Source: a virus. From it: 39,231 nt of DNA. The translations under genes and the position numbers were made by a program. The first letter of the stretch is position 1. Each line of letters opens with the position of its first letter. Positions 18,571-39,231 of this stretch are shown here, in pieces. Location: the IMG/VR virus record IMGVR_UViG_3300046450_002069, positions 1 through 39,231 of that record; one strand, 5' to 3'. Below the pieces are notes generated by a model. That model was not told where the DNA came from and searched no databases. It saw only the letters and a list, made by a program, of their open reading frames with translations.

Positions 18571-18924
18571 ATGGATGAAAGATTAAAAAACGCCTTAGAT
18601 TTTTCTAATTACAGACTGGTATTAGAAAACCAAAAAAATAACCTCAAACTTACCTCCGAACAAAGCCTGCATATAATGCATTCAGGACAAAAAATAATAA
18701 TTGATCAAGTATTAATCAGTTTTCTTAATGCGTTAAAACAAGCAAAACAAACGGAAGTAACTATTCTTGATGCACATGATAACCCTGTTAAGATTGATAA
18801 TATATCTAACATATTAACATCTTGCATTGAAAAATATAATTCTGCAATGAATGTGTGGAATACTAAATTTAGTAAAATTAAAAAAGCAAGAAATATGGAG
18901 AAGTTATTAGATGTCTCAGAGTAA
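18571..18924 (+). CDS. Small conserved-type phage protein, function unknown
   Basis: A 117-residue, Lys- and Asn-rich, mostly helical protein. It begins with DERLKNALDFSNYRLVLENQK and has a central helix-strand region (QVLISFLNALKQAKQTEVTILDAHDNPVKI) and a basic C-terminal helix. From memory, its opening resembles small hypothetical proteins found in the late regions of marine T4-like phages, but I cannot name a function. AAGGA about 6 bases before the ATG supports the start. It is the first gene after the exact late promoter, and its 3' end overlaps the next glycosyltransferase gene by 14 bases, so it leads the coupled series. A chaperone or accessory role for the fibre or for the enzymes is possible but unproved. 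Confidence 0.65.
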   Translation: MDERLKNALDFSNYRLVLENQKNNLKLTSEQSLHIMHSGQKIIIDQVLISFLNALKQAKQTEVTILDAHDNPVKIDNISNILTSCIEKYNSAMNVWNTKFSKIKKARNMEKLLDVSE

Positions 18925-19816
18925 AGGAATATGTGCCTTTGCTTACAATAATGAAGAAATAAATTATGTGTTAATGGCATATATTTGTGCATTGCATGTA
19001 AAGACACATTTAAAAAATAATGATTTTTGCTTAATTACCGACGAAGGTTCGTTAGGTTATGCTAAACAGTTAATTGGTGTTGAAAAATTAAACCAGGTAT
19101 TTGACGAAGTAATGGTCACAAATGATCCTTTAAAGGAAACTGATCAAAAAAATATTCGTACTCATTTTGATAGTCCGTGGACAGAGTTTCAAGCACCATT
19201 TATTAATAATAATAAACACGAAGTGTTTACTATCTCGCCGTATGATAAAACAATTTTAATAGATTTAGATTATCTAGTTCTGTCAAATATGCTAGATAGT
19301 TATTTTGACTTAGAAGTGCCATTTAATATGTTTAGTAATGCAAAAAATATGCGTGGTGACAATGCATTATGGAGGGAAATTTGGCTCCATGATCTTGGAA
19401 TAAAAATGAAATGGTCAACGGTCATTTATTTTGATAAAAGCGATGTAGCTAAAACATTTTTTGACTTATGGGAATATATAAAAGATAATTATAATTATTT
19501 TAAGTTTCTATATAAATTCCCTGGTACCTTATATAGAACAGATTATTGTGTGAGCATTGCTTGTCACATTATGTCAAATTCAAACGCAACAGACTGGCAT
19601 GACTTTAAAGATCCAATGTATTTTAGTGATCAAAAAGATGAAATATATGAATTTACTGAAGGGACATATAGCATACTTGCAAATGATCAAATGGAAAACT
19701 GGAAAGATATTCCAGTAACATGGAATGGAGTTGACATTCACATGATGAATAAACGGGCTGTAGATAGACAGTCAAAAAAAATTACAGATTATTATGAAAA
19801 AAAGCTCGGTATCTAA
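18911..19816 (+). CDS. DxD glycosyltransferase A (GT8-like)
   Basis: A 301-residue probable nucleotide-sugar-dependent glycosyltransferase. An N-terminal Rossmann-like half (CAFAYNNEEINYVLMAYICA, then FCLITDEGS) leads to TILIDLDYLVLSN with the DxD pair at residues 118 and 120. It is followed by NMFSNAKNMRGDNALWREIW and a long Trp/Tyr-rich acceptor half with DWHDFKDPMYF. GGAG ends 10 bases before the start. The gene overlaps the upstream one by 14 bases and the downstream one by 23. The following gene has the same layout, so the two look like an old tandem duplication. Donor and acceptor are unknown; the glycosyltransferase-fold assignment is good. Confidence 0.75.
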   Translation: MSQSKGICAFAYNNEEINYVLMAYICALHVKTHLKNNDFCLITDEGSLGYAKQLIGVEKLNQVFDEVMVTNDPLKETDQKNIRTHFDSPWTEFQAPFINNNKHEVFTISPYDKTILIDLDYLVLSNMLDSYFDLEVPFNMFSNAKNMRGDNALWREIWLHDLGIKMKWSTVIYFDKSDVAKTFFDLWEYIKDNYNYFKFLYKFPGTLYRTDYCVSIACHIMSNSNATDWHDFKDPMYFSDQKDEIYEFTEGTYSILANDQMENWKDIPVTWNGVDIHMMNKRAVDRQSKKITDYYEKKLGI

Positions 19817-20693
19817 GACGGGAATTGACGCAAAGGAATATGCGGACACATCTGCTCAATGGCAAATAGCTCCAATAGAAGCAGATTTTGGAATAACATT
19901 GTTATTAGATAAGCATAGCGATCCCATACAAAAACAATGTGTGGTTGCATGTGTTGCAAGTTTAAAAAAGTTTTTTCCGGATATTCCAATAGCCATAATT
20001 ACAGATTTAAAAGTCAAAACTAAAGCAGATTATATTATGCCCCAAGGTATTGCTATAGATAGTTACTGGTCGAATAAAAAAATTAATCAATGTACAATAT
20101 ATTGGTTAACACCTTTTAAAAAGACATTATATATTGACAATGATTTTATTGCGACAAGTAAAGATAATTTAGATATATACCTGCTAGAAACACTAAGTGC
20201 TATTAAAGTGCCAAGAAATGCATTAAGTTTTAGGGCTAAGAATTTACCATATGAATACGATGTATTAAAAAAGAATAATATTACAACCTTACTACCACAT
20301 TCTATGGTATTTGAGCGTAATAATGATACAGCATTAGAATTTTTTAATTTATGGTATATGGTATGTAGTAATTGGCAAGAATTTTTCCCTTATATAGAAA
20401 AAGGTGTTAATTTTAAACATTATGATACTGTTCTTTCGTTTTCCTTGACTGCTCATATATTAGGTATAAGCAACGAAATGTTAGTTAACGATTATTCATA
20501 TATACATATGAATCCTCTTATAGAAAAAACGTTTCGAAGGATTCGAAACACTGAGTGGTCCTCTTTTATCAACGTATGGCTATCTAATGATGGTTTGTAT
20601 GTTGAGAATTACAAGATCAATCATTTGTTTCATTATAAAGATAAACGCTTTATAGAAACGCACAAGAAGCAAATTGATGAATGGATACGTTAA
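19794..20693 (+). CDS. DxD glycosyltransferase B (GT8-like)
   Basis: A 299-residue paralogue-like neighbour of the preceding enzyme. The N-terminal half reads GITLLLDKHSDPI, then FPDIPIAIITDLK, the usual first strands of a GT-A fold. KKTLYIDNDFIATS places the DxD at residues 115 and 117 (DND). Later SMVFERNNDTALEFFNLWYM resembles the second conserved block of GT8-like enzymes, and HYDTVLSFSLTAHILG the third. The extended N-terminus begins inside the previous gene (23-base overlap) because no later in-frame ATG precedes the fold. It has no membrane segment. It probably adds one sugar in the same glycan as its neighbour. Confidence 0.75.
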   Translation: MKKSSVSKTGIDAKEYADTSAQWQIAPIEADFGITLLLDKHSDPIQKQCVVACVASLKKFFPDIPIAIITDLKVKTKADYIMPQGIAIDSYWSNKKINQCTIYWLTPFKKTLYIDNDFIATSKDNLDIYLLETLSAIKVPRNALSFRAKNLPYEYDVLKKNNITTLLPHSMVFERNNDTALEFFNLWYMVCSNWQEFFPYIEKGVNFKHYDTVLSFSLTAHILGISNEMLVNDYSYIHMNPLIEKTFRRIRNTEWSSFINVWLSNDGLYVENYKINHLFHYKDKRFIETHKKQIDEWIR

Positions 20694-21672
20694 GGCCGTT
20701 ACAAGGGATAATAAATTGTGGATTTACAGTGATAAATTTACTGGTGCTGTTGTAGAATTTAAACACAAACCGCTTGATAAGTATGATTCAAAGAATCTCA
20801 GGGAAACATTACATCAAACTGGAGATATAGAAAAATACTTAAAAGAGACTGTAAATTATGACAAATTACGAATATTTTATAATCCCGACGAACAACGTTA
20901 TGATTTAAAACATAAAGATAACCGACTCCAAATTCAAGTAGATGATACTGAATTATATCAGATGCCGGTATTCGAGTGGGACAATATATATGGTGATATA
21001 AACGTAATAATAGATAAAGACGAGGATGCTTTATTTCTTAAGATTGGTCCGCAAATATATGATCAACTTTTAAATTTAGAGTTATCTAACAAAGTTAATA
21101 TCAATACAAATCAAAAAACTTTAGAATTTTGGATTACCAAAAAAGATCAGCCACATATTTTATTAGATACAATAAAAGTAGATACTAAAAGATTTATAGA
21201 AGAAGGACAGGCTACATTTGATATATCGAAAGTTCAATCATATGTAAATTATAACGAAATAAGTGTTTTTACGCAACGAATTTTTGCTGATTATAAAATA
21301 TTTTATAAAAATCAATTCTCGGCTATATTAGAACACCAGCACACGAAATATGATATTGAAGTTGTAGCACAGGAAAAATACGCAGATGTTGCTATATGGC
21401 TTGATAGTGTCGAAAATGACTTTAAAACAAATACTTGGTCTTCTCGTTTTAATATAATGTCATCAATAAAAAACTTTGCAAAGTATGATATTTTATCAGA
21501 TTATTTAGATTTTTATGTAGTAGATAAAAACAATGTACATAATATGATACAACAAGTACATATACCAATATTAGAAATTAAAAATGATAGGGTGTTTACA
21601 TTCTGGGTAAATACCGACAGAGATGTTCTCTTTTTACATAACCACCACAAAGTATTAGTAGGTATACAATGA
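20677..21672 (+). CDS. Unrecognised beta-rich protein
   Basis: A 331-residue protein I do not recognise. The ATG at 20677 is preferred over the adjacent TTG at 20674, and it overlaps the preceding gene by 17 bases with AAGAAG upstream. The sequence is acidic and rich in Asp, Lys, Tyr and Phe with alternating hydrophobic pattern: DINVIIDKDEDALFLKIG, LEFWITKKDQPHILLDTIKV and VFTFWVNTDRDVLFLHNHHK. These look like related beta-sandwich repeats at about 105-160, 150-200 and 285-330. No catalytic signature, signal peptide or membrane segment is visible. It sits between glycosyltransferases and overlaps the next gene by ATGA. It could be an accessory or scaffold protein, or a virion component that is a substrate of the cluster. 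Confidence 0.6.
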   Translation: MNGYVKAVTRDNKLWIYSDKFTGAVVEFKHKPLDKYDSKNLRETLHQTGDIEKYLKETVNYDKLRIFYNPDEQRYDLKHKDNRLQIQVDDTELYQMPVFEWDNIYGDINVIIDKDEDALFLKIGPQIYDQLLNLELSNKVNINTNQKTLEFWITKKDQPHILLDTIKVDTKRFIEEGQATFDISKVQSYVNYNEISVFTQRIFADYKIFYKNQFSAILEHQHTKYDIEVVAQEKYADVAIWLDSVENDFKTNTWSSRFNIMSSIKNFAKYDILSDYLDFYVVDKNNVHNMIQQVHIPILEIKNDRVFTFWVNTDRDVLFLHNHHKVLVGIQ

Positions 21673-22640
21673 AAATCCCAATTACAGAATATGATGTTAT
21701 ATTCATTAGTTATGACGAACCCAATGCCGATGATAACTATGCTGATTTGTTAAACAAGATTCCTTGGGCAAAACGATCTCATGGAGTATTTGGCAGTGAT
21801 GCCGCACATAAAGCCGCAGGTGCTTTATCTGAAACACCTAGGTTTATAGGTATTGATGCCGATAACATAATAGATCCTGATTTTCTAAACATAGAATTAG
21901 ATGATCGAAAAGTAGATATGAAAGTTGATGTGGTTAGTTGGAGTGGTAAAAATACAGTTAATGGATTAGTATATGGCAATGGTGGTATTAAATGTTGGCC
22001 ACTTGATGTTGTTGAAAACATGTTTACACATGAAAATGCTAATACTTCAGCCGGACAAGTTGATTTTTGTTGGGATATACATTATGTACAAATGAATAAT
22101 GTGTATAGTGATGTACATAACAATGCAACACCATATCAAGCATACAGAGCAGGATTCCGTGAAGGATGCAAGATGAGCCTGGATAATGGTGATGTTGTGC
22201 CAGTTGACAGTTTTAAAAAACGAATACATTGGAAAAATTATAAACGATTACTAGTATGGATGAGTGTTGGAGCCGATTCCCTTAATGGGTTGTGGGCAAT
22301 ATATGGAGCTAGGTTAGGCTGTTGGATGACAAATTTTGACAGGAATTCATGGAACTGGGTAGATGTTCGTGACTTTGAATGGCACACACGATATTGGAAC
22401 GAAACAATTGCACCACAGTTTGAAACTGAAATTGGTGCTACTTGCACACATACTGGATGGACTTATGATCTTGAAAAATTACAAAAAGAAACACGCAGAA
22501 TAGGCGGAGATCTAAGGTCCGAGCTTGCTATAGAAATTGCAGATTTAGATGAATATGGTAGTAGATTTTTTAAAGAAACATATATTAATCCCGCTCGAAC
22601 AGCACCACTGATTCGTGAAAGCGATGTAATATTAACATGA
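21669..22640 (+). CDS. GT-A glycosyltransferase (GT2-like, phage type)
   Basis: A 323-residue probable glycosyltransferase. It opens with a GT-A nucleotide-binding strand (YDVIFISYDEPNADDNYADLL), followed by WAKRSHGVFGSDAAHKAAG. The latter is the 'known position, helix of the donor pocket' element of GT2-like enzymes. RFIGIDADNIIDPDF has the DxD at residues 63 and 65. NGLVYGNGGIKCWPLDVVENM is the acceptor-side Gly-rich block. The C-terminal 140 residues carry several Trp (WKNYKRLLVWMSVGAD; RNSWNWVDVRDFEWHTRYW) and may bind the acceptor. It overlaps its neighbours by ATGA at both ends. Similar proteins are known from T4-like marine phages; the sugar is not predictable. Confidence 0.75.
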   Translation: MKIPITEYDVIFISYDEPNADDNYADLLNKIPWAKRSHGVFGSDAAHKAAGALSETPRFIGIDADNIIDPDFLNIELDDRKVDMKVDVVSWSGKNTVNGLVYGNGGIKCWPLDVVENMFTHENANTSAGQVDFCWDIHYVQMNNVYSDVHNNATPYQAYRAGFREGCKMSLDNGDVVPVDSFKKRIHWKNYKRLLVWMSVGADSLNGLWAIYGARLGCWMTNFDRNSWNWVDVRDFEWHTRYWNETIAPQFETEIGATCTHTGWTYDLEKLQKETRRIGGDLRSELAIEIADLDEYGSRFFKETYINPARTAPLIRESDVILT

Positions 22641-23992
22641 CCGAAGAAAAATTTCCTGATTATAATAAAGAATACAGCAATTCATTTTGTGTATATCCAT
22701 GGGTATCCCTTATGGTTAATACTAGTGGCACTCTTAATTATTGTTGTATTGCTAAGCCTGGCATTCTACGTGACGAAAAGCAACGGCAGTTAACGCTAGG
22801 TAATTCGACACTTCAAGAAGGATGGAACTCGCCTCGTATGAAAGAACTGCGAAAAATGATGGTCAAGGGAGATATAATTGACGAATGCGAACATTGTTTT
22901 TTACAGGAAAAAATAGGTAAAAAAAGTTTTCGAGAAATGCACAATGATGAATGGACAAGAAAATTAGGCGAAGACGAAATACATCGTAGGGTTAAAGAGG
23001 CAAGTGATAATGATTATAAGATGACAAGCGATCCTGTATATTTAGATTTACGATTAAGTAATTTATGTAATTTAAAATGCAGAATGTGTTCACCACATAA
23101 TAGTAGTCAAATAGCAAAAGAACATAAAAAGTTGTTTGATAAAAATGATGATTATACTGATGTATGGAAAAAAACATGGGGCGATAATCTTAACTGGTTT
23201 ACTGACAAAGGATATGTAAAACAATTTTATAGTGATAATTTATGGGAAGATGCTAAAAAATGGATTCCGGGTTTACGTAAAATATATATAACAGGCGGCG
23301 AACCAACATTAATAAAACATAATACTGATTTCTTAGGCGAATGTATTAAACAAGGATATGCAGATAAAATTGAAATTTTTCTTAATACAAATTGTACTAA
23401 TATAAATGAAGCCTTTTTAGAAATTATTAAACAATTTTCTAATGTAGTAATAAATGCTAGTTTAGACGGTATTGGAAAAACAAATGAATATATTAGATAT
23501 CCTAGTAATTGGAATGACTTAGAGATAAATTATTTAGATATGCTTAACCTTCCTAATGTTTGGTCTAATGCAACACCAGTTCTCCAAATTTATAATTTAG
23601 ATACTATACACGAGGTATTTCATTATGCAGATAAAATGAGCGATCAATTATATGGTGCAGATAATACTAAAACAATTGGTGTTGATATTTTAATTAATAC
23701 GCATCCTGCTTTCCTTGATGTACGAAATTTGCCAGTTGAATGGCGACAAGGTTGTAAAAATGAACTGCTTGAATTTAAAGAAGAATATACATTATATGAT
23801 AAAAATTTTATTGCAAGTAATAGCATAGATGGTATTGTTAATTATTTAGATTTGCCTCAGTTAGATGCGTATAAAGAAAACTTAACAGATTTTATAAAGA
23901 TGACAGACATACAAGATAACACTAGAAAACAAAACTTTGCCGATTTAAATCCCTCATTATATAAGCGTATAAAAGAACTGGTCAATGATTAA
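22637..23992 (+). CDS. Radical SAM protein with N-terminal twitch-type domain (1)
   Basis: A 451-residue radical-SAM enzyme. The N-terminal part carries FCVYPW (Cys18), a CC pair (36-37) and CEHC (Cys84, Cys87), the ligand set of an auxiliary Fe-S 'twitch' domain placed before the core. The core has CNLKCRMC (Cys144, 148, 151), which binds the SAM-cleaving [4Fe-4S] cluster. The SAM-binding GGEP is at 220-223, followed by LNTNCTN and a VVINASLDG strand. Twitch- and SPASM-bearing enzymes commonly modify peptides or sugars by hydrogen abstraction. This one is cytosolic, with its substrate unknown. It overlaps the upstream glycosyltransferase by ATGA and the downstream one by 8 bases, which favours glycan tailoring. 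It is paralogous in layout to the protein at 25848. Confidence 0.88.
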   Translation: MTEEKFPDYNKEYSNSFCVYPWVSLMVNTSGTLNYCCIAKPGILRDEKQRQLTLGNSTLQEGWNSPRMKELRKMMVKGDIIDECEHCFLQEKIGKKSFREMHNDEWTRKLGEDEIHRRVKEASDNDYKMTSDPVYLDLRLSNLCNLKCRMCSPHNSSQIAKEHKKLFDKNDDYTDVWKKTWGDNLNWFTDKGYVKQFYSDNLWEDAKKWIPGLRKIYITGGEPTLIKHNTDFLGECIKQGYADKIEIFLNTNCTNINEAFLEIIKQFSNVVINASLDGIGKTNEYIRYPSNWNDLEINYLDMLNLPNVWSNATPVLQIYNLDTIHEVFHYADKMSDQLYGADNTKTIGVDILINTHPAFLDVRNLPVEWRQGCKNELLEFKEEYTLYDKNFIASNSIDGIVNYLDLPQLDAYKENLTDFIKMTDIQDNTRKQNFADLNPSLYKRIKELVND

Positions 23993-25259
23993 CATAGCAA
24001 TTTTAGCAACAGGTCAACCACGAAGTGCTTACATTGCTAGTATATTATGGAAAGAATACTGGATAGATATTCAAGGTTCGTTTGTTGATTGTAATATTAA
24101 AACTTTTGTTTCGGTTGTTAATGATGAAAGTGTAAAATATACTCATGTTGAGCATCAAAATAATTATAGCAATCAAGAACTTACTGACTTAATACATCAT
24201 GATGTTATAGAAATCTATACTCAAGAAGAAGTAACAGAAAAAACATATTCTAAATTTAAGTTTAATTTTGATGCATTAAAAAGAATCGGACATGGAGCAA
24301 CATGGTATCAACTATGGCATTTATTTAATGCTGGTAGAATGGCGTTTGAATATGAAAAAAGTAATAACATAAAATTTGATTTATTCATTAAAATTCGGCT
24401 AGATCATTACTCTGGTCAACTATATGGAGGTACGATAAAGTCAGTATATGGGCCGTTATTGAAAAGACTTACAAGTATAACGGACTATCAAAATAAACGA
24501 ATTGCATTTTTTAATTATATGTATGTGCATTGGTTCCTTTTTTGGAATTGGCAAAGTGACGGCGTGGACTCGATTAAAAATGTTAATTATATAAATGATG
24601 TACTATTTGCATTTTCGAGACAAGCATTTGTTGATATATGCAAGAATGCTGATAATCAAGAATATACTGATTTAGTAGTATCATTATTACTAATGAATAC
24701 AATATTACAGGAAGACGCAGATCACTGGATTCAGCAAGAGGCGTTACAAAGATTAAATATTCCGTGGTTAAACGCTAATACATTCGAAGGACCAAACGGA
24801 ACATGGTTATCTAGAATAATAGCACAAAAACACAGAGGACAAATTACCGAATGGATTAATAACATGTGGCCAATAGTACCAAGTAACAATCCAATTACAC
24901 GTACTTTTTATGGCCAAGAGTTAAAAACTCCGATACAGGTACCAACTGACAAACAAGAATTTATTAACATGTTTTGTCATTCTGATCCTACTATAAAAAG
25001 TCCGCAACTTTTATTAGGTGCTCAATTTCTATCTGCTGAATTTTTACATCTTTGTTACTTTAAAGCAGGAATTGATATTGTTTTTCCTCTTAATAATAAT
25101 GCAACAAATCACTTAGCTAAAATATCTCCGAAAGCAGATCAACAAGAATTTCTTAACTCTGTAAACACATTTGACGATCATACAATAAAGGTTAAAGCAT
25201 TTCACCAATACAACAAGAAGTTTACTTATAGTAAACGAAAGCAACAGATTCATGGCTAA
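23985..25259 (+). CDS. Putative glycosyltransferase, large GT-A-like
   Basis: A 424-residue protein. It starts with INIAILATGQPRSAYIAS, a strand-loop opening typical of a nucleotide-sugar-binding fold. It then has WYQLWHLFNAGRMAFEYEKSN and FDLFIKIRLDHYSG, in which D132 and the 'KIRLD' stretch (D140) resemble the 'yD.firiR.D' block of poorly characterised glycosyltransferases in capsule and giant-virus clusters. The block NDVLFAFSRQAFVDIC is also consistent with that group. A Trp-rich region and a 170-residue C-terminal part follow (QEDADHWIQQEALQRL). It lies between two radical-SAM/unknown genes with 8-base overlaps on both sides. Glycosyltransferase is the best guess, with only moderate support because no unambiguous DxD is seen. 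Confidence 0.55.
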   Translation: MINIAILATGQPRSAYIASILWKEYWIDIQGSFVDCNIKTFVSVVNDESVKYTHVEHQNNYSNQELTDLIHHDVIEIYTQEEVTEKTYSKFKFNFDALKRIGHGATWYQLWHLFNAGRMAFEYEKSNNIKFDLFIKIRLDHYSGQLYGGTIKSVYGPLLKRLTSITDYQNKRIAFFNYMYVHWFLFWNWQSDGVDSIKNVNYINDVLFAFSRQAFVDICKNADNQEYTDLVVSLLLMNTILQEDADHWIQQEALQRLNIPWLNANTFEGPNGTWLSRIIAQKHRGQITEWINNMWPIVPSNNPITRTFYGQELKTPIQVPTDKQEFINMFCHSDPTIKSPQLLLGAQFLSAEFLHLCYFKAGIDIVFPLNNNATNHLAKISPKADQQEFLNSVNTFDDHTIKVKAFHQYNKKFTYSKRKQQIHG

Positions 25260-25866
25260 CATATGTATAACAAACCCGACGCTGAAAAACAATGGGTGGG
25301 ATACTATCTTTACTGATAACTATATTCCATATGAAATGGATGTTGTATTCGATGCTTCGCCTAATGCTTTAGATAAATCATTTTGTGATTTTGTATTAAA
25401 GATATACGAACATAGATCAAAATTGTTTGTAGATGATATTACTCCGTCAATATATTTTTCAAGTATAGGAGTTGGGTTTGATGAGTGGAATTTGTTTGAG
25501 AAATATTATGATAAAAAGACGTTTAGCAATTTTATAATGATTTCGAGCCCAACAAAATATATAATTCAACTTAATATACCACTTAACAATCTTCATAATG
25601 TTATTAGTGAATTAAGTTGGTTAAATTATTATTATCAAACACAAAAGTTTGCTGACACAGTAGCAAGAATAGCTGATAGTTTTAGTGATTCGCTTCCGCA
25701 TAAAGATATTAAAAATCTGTTGGACGGCTTTCTACCAAGTTATATGCAAGTACCTTTTCCGGAAGTTGCAAGATCTATGTATGACACAGTATTTAAATAC
25801 GTAGATACAAAAATAATTCATTTTCCTAGTAACATGACTAAAGACTTATGGCACAAGAATTCTTAA
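25252..25866 (+). CDS. Unrecognised 204-residue protein of the modification cluster
   Basis: A 204-residue protein with no motif I can name. The first 60 residues include KSFCDFVLKIYEHRSKLFVDD, faintly like the entry helix of 2-oxoglutarate oxygenases, but no HxD...H iron triad follows, so I do not assign that. The middle is a beta-helix mix (FIMISSPTKYIIQLNIPL), and the C-terminal half is helical with many Asp, Ser and Phe. It has no signal peptide or membrane segment. It overlaps the upstream glycosyltransferase-like gene by 8 bases and the downstream radical-SAM gene by 19. Its placement directly before a twitch-type radical-SAM gene makes a partner or substrate role worth testing. Confidence 0.6.
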   Translation: MANICITNPTLKNNGWDTIFTDNYIPYEMDVVFDASPNALDKSFCDFVLKIYEHRSKLFVDDITPSIYFSSIGVGFDEWNLFEKYYDKKTFSNFIMISSPTKYIIQLNIPLNNLHNVISELSWLNYYYQTQKFADTVARIADSFSDSLPHKDIKNLLDGFLPSYMQVPFPEVARSMYDTVFKYVDTKIIHFPSNMTKDLWHKNS

Positions 25867-31360: not shown

Positions 31361-32064
31361 TGAAATATTCTAGTGTTGCACACCAACATAAAAATAATTC
31401 AACTTTTCGTAGATTTAGCCGTGCTTATAACAAATTTTATGATGCTATATTAAACGAACTTACTCCTAACATATTTCTTGAACTAGGAATTTCAACAGGC
31501 ACTAATTTAATGTTATGGAACGATATATTAAAGGATAGTGTAAAAATAGGAATAGAATTATTAAATCCTAGTCAATCAGTTGAGTCGCTAACAGGTGATA
31601 GTTTTGAAAAACAATTAGATGAATGTAAAGAAGCAGTTGATAATTATTTAAAATATCAATTAAAAGTAAATAACTGTTTTATTTTTAAAAACAATAACTG
31701 GTACTTTGATAGAGATGCATTTAGTATTGAAACTGTTAAAGAAATAATAAACAAACATGGTAAAATAGATTTAATTATCAATGATGCACGACACGGAATT
31801 GATGTATGGAAGAAGTTAGATGTGTGGAAGGATGCATTAACAGATAATGGAGTAATAATAACAGAAGAAATAGGGTGTGCTACTAGAGCTCAAACTAATG
31901 GCGATTTAATAAATGAGGATCAAATTAATTCAGCAATTAACGAAGGCTGGAAAATTTATAATTTTAATAATATTAAAACATGGAATCAATCTAACTGTAT
32001 TATAGGCTATTGGTCTAAAAATCAATTAGGATTAAAGGAGATAAATGAGTTCAGACGAGTTTAA
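31360..32064 (+). CDS. SAM-dependent methyltransferase-like protein (TylF/CmcI type)
   Basis: A 234-residue class I SAM methyltransferase-like protein. FLELGISTGTNLMLWND (residues 39-55) is motif I, in which the acidic residue and Gly-rich turn bind SAM. The next acidic strand VKIGIELLNP fits motif II. IDLIINDARHGIDVW (136-150; Asp142, His145) resembles the 'D.I.dDg.H' metal-binding motif of sugar O-methyltransferases of the TylF and cephalosporin-hydroxylase-like group. A conserved GVIITEEIG strand follows. Substrates in that group are often nucleotide-linked or transferred sugars, which fits the glycan context. It follows the MORN gene with a TAATG junction and overlaps the next sulfotransferase by 20 bases. 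Confidence 0.72.
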   Translation: MKYSSVAHQHKNNSTFRRFSRAYNKFYDAILNELTPNIFLELGISTGTNLMLWNDILKDSVKIGIELLNPSQSVESLTGDSFEKQLDECKEAVDNYLKYQLKVNNCFIFKNNNWYFDRDAFSIETVKEIINKHGKIDLIINDARHGIDVWKKLDVWKDALTDNGVIITEEIGCATRAQTNGDLINEDQINSAINEGWKIYNFNNIKTWNQSNCIIGYWSKNQLGLKEINEFRRV

Positions 32065-32962
32065 AGGTAATATTGTAGTATTTTTTCATATACCAAAAAC
32101 TGCCGGTACTACAATAAGAGAAAGATATCAAAATAGCAACAATTTCTATCTTGTTGACGATGACATAAGAGAAAATCCGTTATGGTATCCTCAAGTTACT
32201 GAAAATAGTTGCTTTATTGGCCACGATGTAGTTATCGGAAACGTTGAGAAGATATATCCTGCGGCAAATGTAGTTTACATTACAGCATTACGAGATCCAG
32301 TTGAAAGAATAATGAGTTCATATAATTTTATCAAAACACAAGCAAAGTATATGAATTCGCACTTTACTGGCGACTTAGATTTTTTGTTGTGGTACGCAAA
32401 TAGAGATGTTATGCGTCCAATGCCTCACCTACATCAATATCAATATGTGTTTAAGCAACATGTTAGTATGAAACAGTTTTACAAATCCGGATCAATTATG
32501 GATGATGAAATAGCAATGAAAGCACTCTATATGAATACTGATGCACTAGAAGCAACAATTGGTGTTGCTTCATCAGGTCATCATCAGACAGTAACTACTA
32601 TTAATACTAAAAAACAATTAAACATACGATTGCAAGCAAATAAAGTTGAAAAACAAAACAGCGAATTTGCACTTGGTCTTGTAACAAAGCATTTCTCTGA
32701 TATATTTTTTGTTAGTCCATCTAGAAGCAGTAGCCAAAATTTTTGTGAACGCTTCGATGGTATACTTGAAAAATATGAAGTAGATGCTACACCCGACAAA
32801 GAAATTATACGGACCAATGATACAAAATTAACAATAGAAAACCAAGGTATCCCCTGGACATTTTTTCATGACCTTCCGGAAGAATATAAAAGATCAGTAA
32901 AGTATGATCAACAATGGGAACAAACGTGGTTTGAAAACATAAAGAAGGAATGGGACGAATAA
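32045..32962 (+). CDS. Sulfotransferase (Sulfotransfer_2-like) 2
   Basis: A 305-residue protein and the clearest sulfotransferase in the window. VVFFHIPKTAGTTIRERY has the textbook HIPKTAGT 5'-phosphosulfate loop (His15, Lys18, Thr22). ITALRDPVERIMSSYNF (Arg83, Ser92) is the 3'-phosphate motif. A following acceptor half has LDFLLWYANRDVMRPMPHLHQYQY and, further on, VKYDQQWEQTWF. AAAGGAG at 32034-32040 is a strong ribosome site four bases before the ATG, inside the end of the methyltransferase gene (20-base overlap). There is no secretion signal. It may sulfate the product of the cluster's glycosyltransferases; host-derived PAPS would be needed, as no PAPS synthesis gene is in the window. Confidence 0.88.
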   Translation: MSSDEFKGNIVVFFHIPKTAGTTIRERYQNSNNFYLVDDDIRENPLWYPQVTENSCFIGHDVVIGNVEKIYPAANVVYITALRDPVERIMSSYNFIKTQAKYMNSHFTGDLDFLLWYANRDVMRPMPHLHQYQYVFKQHVSMKQFYKSGSIMDDEIAMKALYMNTDALEATIGVASSGHHQTVTTINTKKQLNIRLQANKVEKQNSEFALGLVTKHFSDIFFVSPSRSSSQNFCERFDGILEKYEVDATPDKEIIRTNDTKLTIENQGIPWTFFHDLPEEYKRSVKYDQQWEQTWFENIKKEWDE

Positions 32963-33618
32963 TGTATTTAGATGCAGATAGAAATTTCCCACAACCTTGT
33001 TTAAACTTTTTAAAATCAAAAGTTAATATAGAAACAGTTATTGATATTGGTGTGCGACAATGTACACCTTATTTAATGAAAGCATTTCCTGATAAGAAAC
33101 ATATACTATTTGAAATAATTATTGAATGGGCAGAAACAATTAAAGATAGGTATAAAGATTTTAATTATGATTTACATACAGTCGGATTGTCAGATACAAA
33201 TGAAGAAAAATTACAGTTAGTTCATGAGAATCATATGCCGTCATCATATAATTCGTTGTCTACTTTTTTTTCACGTAAATTAAAATATAGTACACTTGAT
33301 AGCATTATGACAGATGAGCAAGTGCCTTACTTAATAAAAATTGATGTTGATGGCGATGAACTTAAAATTTTAACTGGTGCAGTTAGTACAATAAGCAAAG
33401 CAACTATTATTATTGTAGAAGGTAGGTTGCATTGCACTAAAGCTAACATGCTAAAAATTATGAATGCTATGTTTGATTTAAATTTTAGGTTATGGGATAT
33501 GTTTCTGCCGATGTATTACGGAGATGATAGCAAAGGACAACGACTAAATGATGAAGGTCGATTAGAACAAATTGAGTTAGTTTTTATAGGCGAAGCCGAA
33601 TATAGTCGTATATTATAA
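32962..33618 (+). CDS. FkbM-type methyltransferase 1
   Basis: A 218-residue SAM methyltransferase of the FkbM type, probably acting on a hydroxyl of a sugar. The ATG at 32962 is preferred because it forms a TAATG junction with the sulfotransferase stop, with AAGGA 12 bases upstream; the ATG at 32950 would touch the AAGGA directly. VNIETVIDIGVRQCTPYL supplies motif I, HILFEIIIEWAE the acidic strand II, and YLIKIDVDGDELKILTGA (Asp128, Asp130, Glu133) the hallmark FkbM block. Like FkbM proteins it has 'IIIVEG' after that block, here followed by an added segment (LHCTKANMLKIMNAMF). It is one base from its shorter paralogue. Confidence 0.82.
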   Translation: MYLDADRNFPQPCLNFLKSKVNIETVIDIGVRQCTPYLMKAFPDKKHILFEIIIEWAETIKDRYKDFNYDLHTVGLSDTNEEKLQLVHENHMPSSYNSLSTFFSRKLKYSTLDSIMTDEQVPYLIKIDVDGDELKILTGAVSTISKATIIIVEGRLHCTKANMLKIMNAMFDLNFRLWDMFLPMYYGDDSKGQRLNDEGRLEQIELVFIGEAEYSRIL

Positions 33619-34196
33619 TGAAGAAACGCAAGACCTCTGGTTTCAGTTCATTTGAAATGTTAAAAGCAAATGATATTGATTTTAAAACAATAATAGATGT
33701 TGGAGTAGGAATGCATGGTACTCCTGTTTTAATGGAGTTATATCCTAATGCAAAACATATTTTGTTAGAATGCGATATCGATAATATAGATAAAAAATAT
33801 ACTGATGAACAAATAGACTATGAATTAATTGAAGTAAAAGTTGATGAGTTTGATCCATCATTAAACAATATATTAGAACATCACAAGCACAAATGGAAAC
33901 GTCCTTGCTTATTAAAGATAGATATTGATGGATTAGATTTACAAGTAGTACGAGGTGCAGTTGAATTATTTCCGTATGTAGATTGGATAATGATTGAAAC
34001 TACAATTAAGTTAAATAGACTATATAATAAATTAGATTTTCTTTCTGGTAAACATCAATGGGTTCTTTGGGATATAGTAGATTTACACTACGGTTATGGT
34101 AGGTTAGCACAAGTTGATTTACTCTTTTGTCGACCTGAAGTATATAATGAACTAGCACAAAAACGCAACAAGATCTACACACCAATACAAATATAA
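33618..34196 (+). CDS. FkbM-type methyltransferase 2 (short)
   Basis: A 192-residue tandem paralogue of the preceding methyltransferase. FKTIIDVGVGMHGTPVLM is motif I, HILLECDIDNID strand II, and CLLKIDIDGLDLQVVRGA (Asp102, Asp104, Asp107) the FkbM block, with DWIMIETTIKLN after it. The C-terminal part (HQWVLWDIVDLHYGYGRLAQVDLLF) aligns by eye with the paralogue's RLWDMFLPMYYG...RLEQIELVF. It is about 25 residues shorter, mainly because the insert between strand II and the FkbM block is reduced. The pair may methylate different positions or sugars. It starts on a one-base overlap and leaves an 8-base gap to the next gene. Confidence 0.8.
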   Translation: MKKRKTSGFSSFEMLKANDIDFKTIIDVGVGMHGTPVLMELYPNAKHILLECDIDNIDKKYTDEQIDYELIEVKVDEFDPSLNNILEHHKHKWKRPCLLKIDIDGLDLQVVRGAVELFPYVDWIMIETTIKLNRLYNKLDFLSGKHQWVLWDIVDLHYGYGRLAQVDLLFCRPEVYNELAQKRNKIYTPIQI

Positions 34197-34204
34197 GGTA
34201 TAAT

Positions 34205-34666
34205 ATGATAATCACAAAAAAAATGTTAGATAATGAATACACCGGCAATGGTGTATTAGAAGACGAAGAAGAAGGAAAGAAAGTTGTTGCACAATATACT
34301 AAAGGCAAGCATGATGGTATTAGTGTTACACGATATAGTAAAACTAAAACAAACCCTAGAAACATTCATATAGCAGAAGAATTCAAGGACGGGGTAAAAC
34401 ATGGACTAGAAATAAAATGTGATAAAAATATGCCCGGACCTCATGACGTAGAATTATCTGAATATGTCGATGGAGAAAAGACAAACTTTGGCACTCATTC
34501 GTTTGACTACAATGATAACATTTTTTTAGGGCATCTCAACGAAGATATGTCAGGAACAGGGTTGTTACTATGTGACGATCAAATTTATCTTGGAGAACTT
34601 AAAGATGGTATACCAACACCCGACGGTGAATGGATAGACGCTGAAATCTGGAAATATCAAATATGA
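34205..34666 (+). CDS. MORN-like repeat protein (2), short
   Basis: A 153-residue protein with a looser MORN-like pattern. Repeats 'G..v....y..Gkh.G' occur at about residues 15-45 (VVAQYTKGKHDGISVTRYSK) and 55-70 (EEFKDGVKHGLEIKCDK). There are also units at 75-95 and 105-140 (FLGHLNEDMSGTGLLL, YLGELKDGIPTPDGEW). It is acidic overall, half the length of the first MORN protein, and is not obviously derived from it. AAGG lies upstream of its ATG. It is encoded between the methyltransferases and a radical-SAM gene, with an ATGA overlap downstream. A scaffold role is a guess; the repeat assignment is moderate. Confidence 0.65.
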   Translation: MIITKKMLDNEYTGNGVLEDEEEGKKVVAQYTKGKHDGISVTRYSKTKTNPRNIHIAEEFKDGVKHGLEIKCDKNMPGPHDVELSEYVDGEKTNFGTHSFDYNDNIFLGHLNEDMSGTGLLLCDDQIYLGELKDGIPTPDGEWIDAEIWKYQI

Positions 34667-35907
34667 CTCTGAAACGGGGAACTAAGTCCGACACTAGTAA
34701 CGGATTTACCGATACATGGTTAGTTGATCAAGAAGGACTTCCGAATATTCAACGAGATCTTTCTACAAAGTACTGTAAAAATCTTTTTACTAGATTTGAA
34801 GTTGGTACCTCCGGTGGTGTTAAAATGTGTTGTGCTACCTGGTTACCATATACAATAGGTAATCTATTCGATCACGAAGTAGAAGAAATATGGAATAGCA
34901 TAGGTGCTCAACGATTACGTAATCAAATAGTTACTGGAAAATGGAACTATTGTCAACATAAAATTTGTCCACATATAGTAGGTGATAATTTACCCGAAAA
35001 AGAATGGGTTACTACTACTCCAGTCAATGAACCATTAGTTGAAAACGGAGTTCCAAGACGTTATTTTAAGTCAGGGCATCCTGTTTTTGATTGGGAAATA
35101 GATGCTCTTAATAATAAAAGTCTTACTCCTTATCCTCATCCCATTGATATTTTATTTGGAACCGACGAAAGTTGTAACTTATATTGCCCTAGTTGCCGTG
35201 CTAGTAAAATACAACATAGCGAAGGTCCAGAATATGAAAAAAGAAAATACTTAACAGAAAAATTAATGGCAGCCGTGTTACGAATAGATCCAAAACAACC
35301 TGTTGAAATTTGGATAACCGGTTCAGGCGATCCATTTGGTAGTAAAATTTATAGAGAACTATTACAATCATTAGACGGCAGTAATCATCCTAATTTAATA
35401 ATAAATTTACAAACAAACGGAGTAATGCTAACACCTAAAATGTATGATAGTATGCACAAGATACATAATAATTTAGGTTGTTTGGCTGTTAGCCTAGATG
35501 CAGGTACAAAAGAAACATATGAAAATAAAACTAGGTTAGGCGGGCATTGGGATATACTCATGAAAAATTGTGATTATTTAAATTCCAAAGCACGACCGCC
35601 TAAAGAAAGCCACGGAGAATTGGAGTTATCTTTTTCCTTTGTTGTTCAAACTGATAATTACAAAGAAATGCCTGAATATGTACGGTTAATAAAAACTCGT
35701 TTTCCTAATACAACTGCCGGAATTGCGTTTAGTCTTATACTTGATTGGTCAGTTCTAACAGCGCCAATATATGAAGAGAAGTGTGTATGGAAAGTAACAC
35801 ACCCTGAACATCAAAACTTTTTAAAAGTATTACAAGATCCGATATTGCTTGACGAACAAATAAATTTTGGAAACATGAAATATTTACATGAGAAAGCAAA
35901 TCAGTGA
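34663..35907 (+). CDS. Radical SAM protein with N-terminal twitch-type domain (3), GSGDP variant
   Basis: A 414-residue radical-SAM protein. N-terminal Cys38, the CC pair 56-57, Cys97 and Cys102 (CQHKIC) repeat the auxiliary-cluster layout of the two twitch enzymes, around GGVKMCCATWLPYTIGNLFD. The core motif is CNLYCPSC (Cys171, 175, 178). In place of GGEP it has GSGDP (220-224), as in some SPASM-related radical-SAM families, followed by LQTNGV and LAVSLDAGTKETYE. The last 60 residues lack Cys. It is more distant from the other two twitch proteins than they are from each other. It overlaps the next gene, the oxidoreductase-radical SAM fusion, by 20 bases, so the two may act together. Confidence 0.85.
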   Translation: MTLKRGTKSDTSNGFTDTWLVDQEGLPNIQRDLSTKYCKNLFTRFEVGTSGGVKMCCATWLPYTIGNLFDHEVEEIWNSIGAQRLRNQIVTGKWNYCQHKICPHIVGDNLPEKEWVTTTPVNEPLVENGVPRRYFKSGHPVFDWEIDALNNKSLTPYPHPIDILFGTDESCNLYCPSCRASKIQHSEGPEYEKRKYLTEKLMAAVLRIDPKQPVEIWITGSGDPFGSKIYRELLQSLDGSNHPNLIINLQTNGVMLTPKMYDSMHKIHNNLGCLAVSLDAGTKETYENKTRLGGHWDILMKNCDYLNSKARPPKESHGELELSFSFVVQTDNYKEMPEYVRLIKTRFPNTTAGIAFSLILDWSVLTAPIYEEKCVWKVTHPEHQNFLKVLQDPILLDEQINFGNMKYLHEKANQ

Positions 35908-38152
35908 CATATGTATTGTAGGAAGCGGCCGATGGGCAAGAATTATTGCAAGGTCCGGAAGTTTCCATCCAACAACTGCAATTGAAATAGTATCTCTACA
36001 CAACTATAATAACACAAAATCCTGGATAGAGCAACTGGGACTTGACATTCCTTTATATAATAGTTTAAATGATATTACTGCTAATAAAGTAATTGTAGCC
36101 AACCATCCTGCAGATCATTACGATACATGTAAACAATTACTACAAAAAGGTAAAACTGTTCTTTGTGAAAAACCTTTTGTGCCTACCCTTGAACAGGCAA
36201 TCGAACTAGGTCAACTAGGTGAAATTTATATAGGATATGAGTTTAATTTTTCTCAATATTTTAAACAATTGCCAGCTCCTCCGGAACGTGAAATATCAAT
36301 AACATGGCATTCGGTGTTTGATGAAGTAAAATACGGAGAACGTAAAATATCCGATATGACTATTAGTATCTTTGATGATATTAATCCGCATATATTAACA
36401 ATAGTAGATATGGTACTTGGAAAAAAAACATATCAAATTAGTACTATTACACGCAACGAAACAACTATTAATTATACATTGTCAGCACCAGGACACAACG
36501 TTTACAGTTTTTACCGTATTCATGTTGAATTAAAACGCAATGCATCAAAAGCATACAGAGCAATTTCGTTTGGGGACACTATATATGATTTTACTAAATT
36601 AAACGAAGGCTCATTAGACGAAGAACTAGAACATTTTATGAAGGATACAATGCCATATAATCTTAGTGGTAGCCCTAGTGGAATGCAAAAACATAATCAT
36701 TGGATTGTAGATATTACCGAACAAGGTAATAAAATGTTATACAAAGAAAATCTAAAATCTAATGAGTATACTGCATTTAGAGAATATATGTTAAAGCATC
36801 TTTTAAATGCAAACGCATTATCTAATCCTAAAGATGTTACACTTGTAGATAACGTAACTGCTAAAGCAAAAAGTATTGTTAGCATGTTAGCCGACAATCC
36901 ATTTGTGACACAAGAAGAAATAGCAAATAAACTAATTCTTGATAAAGAACAATTAAACAAAATTAATAAAGCAATTAAAGAGTGTAAGTTTGCACAAGAT
37001 CTTATTATAAATGGACAAGGTACAAAATATTGGAAAAATTCTATTATACCTTTACTACAAAAGGATCTTGTTAATAAGTGTTTGAATAATGAGTATCAAT
37101 ATCCATATAGAATAGGTTTGTACTTAGGACAATCATGTATGTTTTATTGTAGTTTCTGTGGGCGTGAGCATGATGCATATTATAAAAAAGATGTACGACA
37201 ACACGGCAACGAATTAATTCATAATATAATTGACACCGCACCCACTGATGATCCACATAGATTTTATTTAAGTGGCGGATTAGAACCGTTGACAAATCCA
37301 GGATTAGGTAGTATAATTAAGCATGGAGCCGCTCGTGGATTTAAATTTGGGTTATATACAAACGGCTACATGTTAACAGAAAAGTATTTAGAACAACAGC
37401 AAGGGGTGTGGGATTTAGATACATTACGTATTAGTTTATATGGGTATGATACTGAGAGTTATTATAATACAACTAAGAGTAAAAAAGGATTTGATATTGT
37501 AAAACAGAATGCAATAACTTTTTCAAAGTTACGAAACAGGTTAGGTAAAAAGGTAAAATTTGGATTTAATTATGTTGTATTACCAGGACAAGCAAAACAC
37601 ATATATAAAATTATTAAATTTGTTGAGGATGTTGGCGGAGACTTTCTTACTTTACGAGAAGATTATTCCAATCCGACTGATGCAAATAAATTTGAAAACC
37701 AACAACAATTAATAGAAGCATTTGAAAAAATAGATACTAATATACATATTGATTACGGTTATGCTTTACATTATCCTAGTTTAGGATTACCTGGTAAAGT
37801 ACTACAACATGTAACGCATAAAGAAATGCAACCTAAGGGTTTCCCGCAAATATCGTGTGTAATTGACTTGTATGGCGATGTTTATTTGTATAGAGAAGCA
37901 GGATTTTTAGATCGTCCAGGTGCAGATAGATATATTATAGGAAGACTTAGCCCAACAAATACATTTAAAGATATTATTAATAATTATAAAGAAATAGCCC
38001 CACAAGAAAATGATACTGATTACTTTGATGCATTTGATCATACTATAACTAAATTATTAAACAAAGAAAAAGCAGATAAATATTTCAATGTGCAAAGTCC
38101 AGTTGTTATTCCACAGGACACACAAGTAATACAAGCATTTTATCCTAAATGA
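35888..38152 (+). CDS. Gfo/Idh/MocA-type oxidoreductase fused to radical SAM enzyme
   Basis: A 754-residue protein with two enzyme halves. Residues 1-300 form an NAD(P)-dependent Gfo/Idh/MocA-type oxidoreductase. ICIVGSGRWARI (Gly12, Gly14) binds the dinucleotide, VLCEKPFVP (Glu94-Lys95-Pro96) is the catalytic-site EKP motif, and DINPHILTIVDMVLG (His168) matches the conserved 'D..pH..D....G' helix. Residues about 330-400 are a helical linker with a winged-helix-like stretch. Residues 410-680 form a radical-SAM domain: CMFYCSFC (Cys417, 421, 424), GGLEP (463-467, one residue longer than GGEP), LYTNGYM and LRISLYGYD. A lone C-terminal Cys near 655 leaves no room for a full SPASM cluster. The combination suggests oxidation and radical chemistry on one sugar-type substrate. 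It shows no frameshift and is one continuous reading frame. Confidence 0.85.
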   Translation: MRKQISDICIVGSGRWARIIARSGSFHPTTAIEIVSLHNYNNTKSWIEQLGLDIPLYNSLNDITANKVIVANHPADHYDTCKQLLQKGKTVLCEKPFVPTLEQAIELGQLGEIYIGYEFNFSQYFKQLPAPPEREISITWHSVFDEVKYGERKISDMTISIFDDINPHILTIVDMVLGKKTYQISTITRNETTINYTLSAPGHNVYSFYRIHVELKRNASKAYRAISFGDTIYDFTKLNEGSLDEELEHFMKDTMPYNLSGSPSGMQKHNHWIVDITEQGNKMLYKENLKSNEYTAFREYMLKHLLNANALSNPKDVTLVDNVTAKAKSIVSMLADNPFVTQEEIANKLILDKEQLNKINKAIKECKFAQDLIINGQGTKYWKNSIIPLLQKDLVNKCLNNEYQYPYRIGLYLGQSCMFYCSFCGREHDAYYKKDVRQHGNELIHNIIDTAPTDDPHRFYLSGGLEPLTNPGLGSIIKHGAARGFKFGLYTNGYMLTEKYLEQQQGVWDLDTLRISLYGYDTESYYNTTKSKKGFDIVKQNAITFSKLRNRLGKKVKFGFNYVVLPGQAKHIYKIIKFVEDVGGDFLTLREDYSNPTDANKFENQQQLIEAFEKIDTNIHIDYGYALHYPSLGLPGKVLQHVTHKEMQPKGFPQISCVIDLYGDVYLYREAGFLDRPGADRYIIGRLSPTNTFKDIINNYKEIAPQENDTDYFDAFDHTITKLLNKEKADKYFNVQSPVVIPQDTQVIQAFYPK

Positions 38153-39000
38153 ATATTTTAGTATATCAACATATCTATAAGAACGGAGGATCTACCGTAT
38201 GGAAACGTTATAAAAATAATGCAGTATCGACATTATTACGTTTTCCTAGTTATGAGTTGCCAACAAAGTGTATAAGAACAAAAGATGACGAAGAATATGA
38301 TACTCCGTTTAATAATAAAATGAATCCCCAACCACAATTTATACATGGTAGACTTCATCCTGGGTTATTAGAAAATAATTTTGATTGTAATCCAATTTAT
38401 ACAACAACATTACGAGAACCCATTGACAGGATAATGAGTGCCTATAATTTTTTTATATCTGACATATGGTATAAATGGGGGAACGAGATGGATGTTGATT
38501 TTAAATTATGGTTTTTAAATAGTTTTAATCTTGTACCAACTGAATATGAAGCACAATATGAATGGTTTATACTTCATACTAATGAAAATCCAATAAGTTA
38601 CAACGATGCATTAGTATCAACATACAAGCGATTTAAATTTAGAGAATGGCAACGACACGAAGAAAGAGAATCAATACCTACCGAAGAACGAGCAATAGCT
38701 CTTGAAGAAAAAAATTGCGAGCTTGCTTTTAATACTATAAAAAAAAGATATAAGCATGTATTCTTTTTAGATCAAGTTGATCGTTTAGAAAAGATTGATA
38801 AATTATTTCAAGATTACGATATACCAGTTAACCCAAATGTAAATATAACAAACGAAAACGATAGCAATGATGCATTTGGACCAATGAAACGAAATGCTGT
38901 ACAATTTACTGACTTATCAACTGAGTATCAAGAATTTGCTTACAAATTTTTAAAATACGAAATACAATTTTATAATAACTGTAAAGATGAATATTCATAA
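38149..39000 (+). CDS. Sulfotransferase (Sulfotransfer_2-like) 3
   Basis: A 283-residue protein with LVYQHIYKNGGSTVWKRY at residues 4-21 (His8, Lys11, Gly14, Ser15, Thr16), a 5'-phosphosulfate loop of the 'H..KnGGST' subtype. TTLREPIDRIMSAYNF near 86-101 (Arg89, Ser98) is the 3'-phosphate motif. Acceptor-half elements FKLWFLNSFNLVPTEYEAQYEWF and HVFFLDQVDRLEKIDKLF line up with the protein at 29646, its closest relative here by eye. The enzyme is cytosolic. It starts with ATGA on the radical-SAM fusion gene and overlaps the next, truncated gene by 14 bases. Function as PAPS-dependent sulfotransferase is likely; the acceptor is unknown. Confidence 0.83.
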   Translation: MNILVYQHIYKNGGSTVWKRYKNNAVSTLLRFPSYELPTKCIRTKDDEEYDTPFNNKMNPQPQFIHGRLHPGLLENNFDCNPIYTTTLREPIDRIMSAYNFFISDIWYKWGNEMDVDFKLWFLNSFNLVPTEYEAQYEWFILHTNENPISYNDALVSTYKRFKFREWQRHEERESIPTEERAIALEEKNCELAFNTIKKRYKHVFFLDQVDRLEKIDKLFQDYDIPVNPNVNITNENDSNDAFGPMKRNAVQFTDLSTEYQEFAYKFLKYEIQFYNNCKDEYS

Positions 39001-39231
39001 TTATTTAAATAACCATTCTGGAAATACTGTTGTTTATTGTGTTGGTGATAAAAATATTATCCCCATGATGCAAAACATGATTACATCACATAATCAAAGT
39101 ACTAGCGAAACTATTGTATTATTTGCTTTAGATAAAGAAATGGCTGATGCTTGTCGTGAAATGTGTCCTGTAATAGATTACTATCCTGCAAGCAAAATTA
39201 GCAACATGTACTTTCAAAAATTACTGATCGC
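38987..39231 (+). CDS. Nucleotide-diphospho-sugar transferase-like protein, cut by window end
   Basis: An open reading frame from ATG at 38987 to the last base, 81 complete codons visible. It begins MNIHNYLNNHSGNTVVYCVG, then NMITSHNQSTSETIVLFALD and KEMADACREMCPVIDYYPAS. That order of strand, loop and helices matches the N-terminal part of the nucleotide-diphospho-sugar transferase group (PF03407-like), which places a 'vvvfaLDe....c...g..v..y' block just there. The gene overlaps the sulfotransferase stop by 14 bases, continuing the coupled series. It shows that the cluster extends beyond the window. The DxD region is not included, so the call rests on the N-terminus only. Confidence 0.6.
   Translation, partial: MNIHNYLNNHSGNTVVYCVGDKNIIPMMQNMITSHNQSTSETIVLFALDKEMADACREMCPVIDYYPASKISNMYFQKLLI

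Follow-up and report, generated by a model that had tools for sequence, protein, structure and literature searches.

A candidate phage-encoded pathway for a sulfated and methylated glycan behind the tail-fiber genes of an uncultured virus

What does a tailed phage make with radical S-adenosylmethionine (SAM) enzymes, glycosyltransferases, sulfotransferases, and methyltransferases encoded directly behind its tail-fiber genes? The question is raised by IMG/VR virus record IMGVR_UViG_3300046450_002069, a linear fragment of 39,231 bp that was analyzed as an entire contig (the window). From position 18571 to the contig end, after an 81-base gap, 23 plus-strand open reading frames (ORFs) follow one another, their junctions ranging from -23 to +8 bases; 22 are complete and the last (38987) is truncated by the contig end. 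An earlier reading of the letters, the first-pass annotation, had described about 20 consecutive, tightly packed plus-strand genes here, which agrees with this layout. The block probably encodes the synthesis of a 4,6-dideoxyhexose and the assembly of a glycan with methyl and sulfate groups, for which the tail fibers are the most likely site. It is co-oriented with the tail-fiber genes and lies directly behind them, and a single operon for biosynthesis and attachment is the favored interpretation. Two points were absent from the first-pass annotation: the gene at 35888 is a fusion of a Gfo/Idh/MocA oxidoreductase with a DesII-like radical SAM deaminase, and the block runs past the contig end.

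The oxidoreductase-DesII fusion and its predicted route

The fusion gene (35888..38152, plus strand, as are all window genes below unless stated otherwise) encodes a protein of 754 amino acids in which the Gfo/Idh/MocA half is followed by the DesII-like half. The PF01408 Rossmann domain scores 45.6 bits (cut-off 24), and the DesII half matches the DesII structure (PDB 8hzv) with an E value of 8.7e-85 at 38% identity. The structural study of DesII gives the SAM ligands, proposes E408 as the base, and reports that D456 is essential by mutation (PMC11434129). Residues C141/C145/C148, G188, E190, R238, S240, Y242, D323, Y324, E408, and D456 of DesII are all kept in the window copy, which thus has the CX3CX2C, GGE, and ribose motifs and the D323/Y324 adenine loop as well as E408 and D456. 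D456 is present in 12 of 12 viral DesII copies and E408 in 11 of them. The reaction of this half is likely of the same type as that of DesII. In the oxidoreductase half, the EKP lysine (K95) and the D-x-x-x-H pair (D164 and H168) are invariant across six aligned fusions; we take this lysine, with the Asp and His, to be the catalytic triad of the Gfo/Idh/MocA family.

Alignment-led scans found 10 further viral contigs with DesII, and the fusion is present end to end in L210-L213. It is also present end to end in Solihabitans fulvus (L220, 2255-4660), the only one with the fusion among 30 GTDB DesII loci, nearly all of which are from named actinomycetes; L221 has another copy of this type of fusion. 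The viral DesII copies stand apart from the bacterial ones in the tree, on long branches, so a recent transfer from actinomycetes was rejected. Searches of cultured phages by tblastn with 35888 and 21669 (50,697 records for 21669) gave no match. Single-protein scans with 35888 and 22637 were likewise empty when exact 8-mers were used because exact 8-mers are too strict, whereas the alignment-led scans did find relatives.

The proposed route takes its chemistry from homology and its target from gene position, and its substrates and the order of its reactions are conditional in the same way. A nucleotide-bound 4-amino-4,6-dideoxyhexose would come from the host or be made by the products of dehydratase and aminotransferase genes, which perhaps lie past the contig end. 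The DesII half would deaminate this sugar through radical chemistry, yielding a 3-keto-4,6-dideoxy sugar, and the fused Gfo/Idh/MocA half would reduce the ketone to a nucleoside diphosphate (NDP)-4,6-dideoxyhexose, a step proposed because of the analogy with chalcose-type pathways. The glycosyltransferases at 18911, 19794, 21669, and 38987 would attach the sugars, which may be tailored by three sulfotransferases, the N-twitch radical SAM enzymes, and methyltransferases of the FkbM and other types.

Neighbors of DesII in other viruses could supply the earlier steps. Unfused viral DesII adjoins a DegT-type aminotransferase in three records (L216 8836-11170, L218 8865-11149, and L219 9989-12333), and a class I/II aminotransferase is also found beside viral DesII. 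In L210 and G073, a short-chain dehydrogenase/reductase of the 4,6-dehydratase/epimerase type and a PF03407 glycosyltransferase adjoin the fusion; the best curated match of the former is dTDP-glucose 4,6-dehydratase at 92-109 bits, which is far below the cut-off and makes its exact reaction uncertain. This enzyme set fits a route from NDP-hexose through 4-keto-6-deoxy, 4-amino-4,6-dideoxy, and 3-keto-4,6-dideoxy sugars to a 4,6-dideoxyhexose. Viral cassettes also contain NodU-type carbamoyltransferases (L211 8538-10025, L267 9375-10856 of G073, and L214 5040-6506), suggesting that carbamoylation may be a further decoration.

Gene order and the conserved core

Three diverged viral records (G070, G071, and G073) have 20, 20, and 19 reciprocal best pairs with the window, of which 18, 19, and 18 are collinear, and none of 100,000 shuffles reached the observed collinearity. 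The collinear proteins, which extend from the tail genes through the DesII fusion, are 21-62% identical. The records compared are fragments. This collinearity argues that the block is not a chance pile-up. The first-pass annotation had proposed that a conserved block beside fiber genes in many phages, together with modified fibers, would support the pathway and that rare co-occurrence of the genes in related phages would speak against it. Examination of neighboring genes across viral records found such a block, and the order kept in the three relatives is the opposite of rare co-occurrence for the pathway as a whole.

For protein E, encoded at 21669, IMG/VR contains at least 587 relatives. The gene belongs to a core of two fiber-type genes, 18571, two GT8-type glycosyltransferase genes, 20674, and 21669 that is nearly constant in the fetched loci and has variable genes after it. 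The five genes from 18571 to 21669 keep their position behind the fiber-type genes in most of 80 loci. Among the 96 non-identical loci whose downstream sequence spans 2 kb or more, radical SAM genes follow the core in 64, other cassettes in 16, and none in 16. All nine matches to the N-twitch radical SAM family NF033640 in G014 (101 kb) fall within 23 kb downstream of E. Per record, matches to the radical SAM family PF04055 reach a maximum of 18, in G073 (87 kb), with 17 of them in the cassette, and in G031 (172 kb), mostly in the stretch behind the core; the radical SAM genes of G073 (L266-L268) and G031 are mostly diverged tandem N-twitch paralogs located there. Other loci (L114, L116, L119, L123, L129, L133, and L135, among others) retain the fiber-glycosyltransferase core, with E present twice, and have no cassette behind it; their plus-strand genes stop at that point. 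This cassette-free group is a natural comparison group.

Only the records grouped around the window and a few others yielded the sulfotransferase/DesII subset. No real DesII match was found in 50 other core-bearing records, and a search of these 50 with the sulfotransferase family PF03567 gave no match either, although no positive control was detected in that search, which makes the absence uninformative. The phage tailoring pathway that had been proposed from the letters is partly supported: the block is conserved by the fiber genes, its product would be a putative sulfated, methylated glycan on fibers or the host surface, and the sulfotransferase/DesII subset was found in few records.

Enzymes of the block and the upstream tail region

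The first-pass annotation had counted five radical SAM enzymes, four sulfotransferase-type proteins with 3'-phosphoadenosine-5'-phosphosulfate (PAPS) motifs, five glycosyltransferase-like proteins, three methyltransferase-like proteins, and two MORN-type proteins. All five radical SAM enzymes score above the PF04055 cut-off and have the CxxxCxxC motif: 22637 (C144), 25848 (C142), 28032 (C37), 34663 (C171), and 35888 (C417). SPASM/twitch domains are N-terminal to the radical SAM core in 22637, 25848, and 34663. The N-twitch enzymes at 22637..23992 (354 bits; a 50% ortholog in G071 and G073) and 25848..27149 (376 bits; a 52-53% ortholog in the same records) are full members of the N_Twi_rSAM family NF033640 by score (cut-off 170 bits). 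The N-SPASM enzyme at 34663..35907 (PF04055 41.5 bits, PF13186 33.1 bits; 42-44% orthologs) has the same domain order, yet its NF033640 score of 58 bits leaves it outside the family. The enzyme at 28032..29063 (PF04055 46.6 bits; 44-49% orthologs) is without a recognized SPASM domain. The block resembles this orphan family through its two members and differs in that diverged paralogs occur in tandem in viruses. In the cultured Vibrio phages K566/K567 (L273, OZ196521.1 161548-165950), radical SAM genes resembling the N-twitch type stand in tandem, with no E core; these phages are a possible laboratory model.

Three of the four sulfotransferase-type proteins retain that assignment. The carbohydrate sulfotransferase at 38149..39000 matches almost the full PF03567 (Sulfotransfer_2) profile at 22.3 bits (cut-off 22), while those at 29646..30482 (19.0 bits; orthologs in the relatives) and 32045..32962 (20.8 bits; phrog_3347 galactose-3-O-sulfotransferase, E value 7e-9) are carbohydrate sulfotransferase-like and below that cut-off. 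Both PAPS-binding motifs are present in all three, and their joint profile finds heparan sulfate 2-O-sulfotransferase (HS2ST) with an E value of 4e-5. The fourth (29056..29649) is a short protein with PAPS-type motifs only and a 26% ortholog in G071.

The methyltransferase at 32950..33618 passes the FkbM family PF05050 (33.9 bits, cut-off 22.7) and has 32-34% orthologs. The neighboring FkbM-like protein (33618..34196) scores 18.1 bits against the same profile, and the Methyltransf_24/CmcI-type protein at 31360..32064 scores 17.8 bits (cut-off 26.3) and matches phrog_21658, a methyltransferase, with an E value of 1.7e-4. One MORN-repeat protein (30479..31360) matches PF02493 at 59 bits; the other (34205..34666) is MORN-like by its resemblance to MORN-bearing proteins of the relatives and has no Pfam match. 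The MORN protein forms a fusion with the methyltransferase in G070, G071, and G073, and in relatives a radical SAM protein carries a further MORN stretch; these fusions link the MORN proteins with the enzymes.

Four of the proposed glycosyltransferases are supported to differing degrees. The AlphaFold model of 18911..19816 (pLDDT 92.5) has a predicted glycogenin fold by Foldseek (E value 2e-7, probability 1.0), and D118 and D120 of its DxD motif are invariant, which makes it GT8-type by fold and motif. It has no Pfam or PHROG match, and glycogenin is reached by sequence profile at an E value of 0.9, so the GT8 assignment does not extend to sequence family. The second GT8-type protein (19794..20693), which has an IDNDF motif, belongs to the same iterative profile family. 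Core protein E (21669..22640; pLDDT 91) appears to be a weakly GT-A-like nucleotide-sugar transferase; the best PDB matches of its model are RmlT, TarS, TarP, and a PBCV-1 capsid glycosyltransferase, with a best E value of 7e-4, a range of about 1e-3 to 1e-2, and TM scores of about 0.3. Profiles of E and of the fiber protein gave no useful match against PDB sequences. The truncated gene at 38987..39229 is the start of a PF03407-type glycosyltransferase, with 29% identity to the PF03407 glycosyltransferase at the syntenic place in L210 (12285-13028). No family was found for the fifth candidate (23985..25259), whose glycosyltransferase label is without support, or for 25252..25866. The protein at 27146..28039 is weakly conserved (22% to G071 31957). 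Two further core genes were recovered by iterative profile, a small conserved protein (18571..18924) in 75 loci and gene d (20674..21672) in 79 loci. Promoter and terminator scans gave chance-level counts.

The left part of the window is a myovirus tail region encoding two baseplate proteins, a protein of 3568 amino acids, and three smaller tail/fiber-type proteins. Two minus-strand genes (106-825 and 908-1615), which are 73-80% conserved in L009, precede the baseplate genes. The gp25-like baseplate wedge (1646..2029) matches PF04965 at 29.5 bits (cut-off 27.2) and a PHROG baseplate wedge. The gp6-like baseplate wedge protein (2029..5355; phrog_10646, 1033 bits) is a lineage marker, being 35-40% identical to proteins of PA5oct- and PBECO4-type jumbo myoviruses and 75-81% identical to those of IMG/VR relatives. 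The giant protein (5358..16064) has homologs at the matching position in syntenic relatives, and the conserved tail-region protein that follows (16093..16719; phrog_11259, 196 bits) is syntenic. The fiber-type structural protein at 16721..17377 has PHROG virion structural and tail fiber matches; it is about 140 amino acids shorter than its relatives in L058, L060, and L064, without their DLAERYE... domain, and ends 29 bases before the next gene. That gene (17407..18489) encodes a fiber-type protein that is syntenic in G008, G014, G017, G070, G071, G073, and most core loci and is, by its position, the candidate target of the pathway.

Target of the pathway and its place among known systems

As their position suggests, the fiber protein or proteins next to the block are the most probable acceptor, and the steady linkage of the core to fiber genes favors virion decoration. 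The host surface is a possible target, although an unlikely one. The same sugar pathway would then act on lipopolysaccharide, capsule, or an S-layer glycan, blocking superinfection or changing recognition, and the position by the fiber genes would reflect late expression. Phage glycosyltransferases that alter host serotype are known, according to work cited in PMC12619734, and nucleotide sugars would be common to host pathways; however, the linkage to fiber genes is fixed across diverged viruses, no membrane or flippase-type glycosyltransferase was recognized among the matched proteins, and no temperate-phage genes were seen. Hypermodification of viral DNA, in which the sugars would be placed on bases, has a precedent in virus-encoded glycosyltransferases (Pyle 2024, cited in PMC12619734) but is very improbable here given the position behind fiber genes and, among the annotated genes of the cassette, the absence of any nucleotide-modifying gene. 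Barely credible is an unrelated pile-up of moron genes without a common function. The cassette content is indeed highly variable among core-bearing loci, but 18 or 19 genes in one order among viruses with such diverged proteins contradict this explanation for the window's own set, and the MORN-methyltransferase and MORN-radical SAM fusions also speak against it.

Alternatively, the radical SAM enzymes would modify the fiber polypeptide in the manner of SPASM/twitch peptide maturases, with the glycan genes forming a parallel layer. SPASM/twitch enzymes often act on peptides, and the 17407 fiber protein carries a (GYS)n repeat, replaced in relatives by (GY)n, (GGY)n, or (GEY)n of variable length at one site. 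The repeat-bearing relatives L072, L074, L091, L121, and L199 cluster in one part of the tree. No cassette-free locus with a Tyr-Gly repeat was found initially. In a wider set, however, 18 of the 63 radical-SAM-bearing loci have the repeat and 45 do not, and EEE-type loci have the repeat without radical SAM genes. Nine trait pairs on the E tree showed no independent co-variation of repeat and radical SAM genes, and the repeat was rejected as the enzyme substrate. A cluster for a ribosomally synthesized and post-translationally modified peptide was also rejected since gaps of at most 8 bases in the window leave no room for a precursor gene. Modification of the polypeptide is considered distinctly improbable.

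Several observations weigh against the preferred pathway, that of a dideoxyhexose-containing glycan on the fibers. The fusion scores 368.5 bits (E value 5e-110) against the DesII equivalog TIGR04426 and does not reach the curated cut-off of 450; it is therefore called DesII-like, and the exact nucleotide sugar may differ. No dehydratase or aminotransferase gene was seen within the window. Two of the three sulfotransferase-like genes and two of the three methyltransferase-like genes (31360 and 33618) are below curated cut-offs, and cassette genes 20674, 23985, 25252, and 27146 have no functional assignment. The evidence for a virion-protein acceptor is positional, and the fiber Tyr-Gly repeat fails to track the cassette once phylogeny is considered.

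The proposed pathway resembles the chalcose-type TDP-4,6-dideoxyhexose pathway of actinomycetes in its DesII-type deaminase with a conserved active site, ketoreductase-type partner, and methyltransferases, and in the aminotransferase beside DesII in several phages. The phage version differs in that DesII is fused to Gfo/Idh/MocA and located by fiber genes, with sulfotransferases and N-twitch arrays. That virus-made virion glycans exist is already known. To our knowledge, no dideoxysugar, sulfation, or radical SAM set accompanies the glycosylation of mycobacteriophage virions, which is similar to the proposed system in placing glycans on virion proteins. Glycans are carried by both capsid and tail proteins of these phages (Freeman 2023, cited in PMC12619734). 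Clusters in Megavirinae and chloroviruses produce rare sugars of bacterial type for the virion fibrils, among them methylated N-acetyl-viosamine (a 4-amino-4,6-dideoxyglucose), and are likewise virus-encoded rare-sugar clusters serving the virion; unlike the tailed-phage operon behind fiber genes, they belong to viruses of eukaryotes, and no radical SAM route is described for them (PMC10117803). Aquatic jumbo phages have four core putative glycosyltransferases, with no radical SAM enzyme, sulfotransferase, or methyltransferase mentioned (PMC12619734). The first-pass annotation knew of no described phage system with this gene set, and no phage paper with DesII or the set was found among the full texts searched, a coverage outside of which many subscription papers fall. 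As far as found, there is no description of a phage operon in which sulfotransferases and tandem radical SAM enzymes accompany a dideoxysugar route of the DesII type.

The fusion gives a specific, testable chemistry in which a single protein would convert NDP-4-amino-4,6-dideoxyhexose to NDP-4,6-dideoxyhexose, and the orphan N-twitch radical SAM family occurs here in a context from which its function might be worked out. More tentatively, large uncultured phages may diversify a glycan (or the fiber) by radical SAM chemistry, with a fixed fiber-glycosyltransferase core, behind which lie rapidly changing arrays of diverged radical SAM enzymes, about 17 at most, and with one branch making a 4,6-dideoxy sugar through the DesII-reductase fusion. 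If so, no earlier deoxysugar pathway based on radical SAM chemistry would be known from a virus, and the system would bring new radical chemistry to virion decoration. The block also suggests that, in a large group of uncultured aquatic phages, fiber decoration is among the major traits that evolve.

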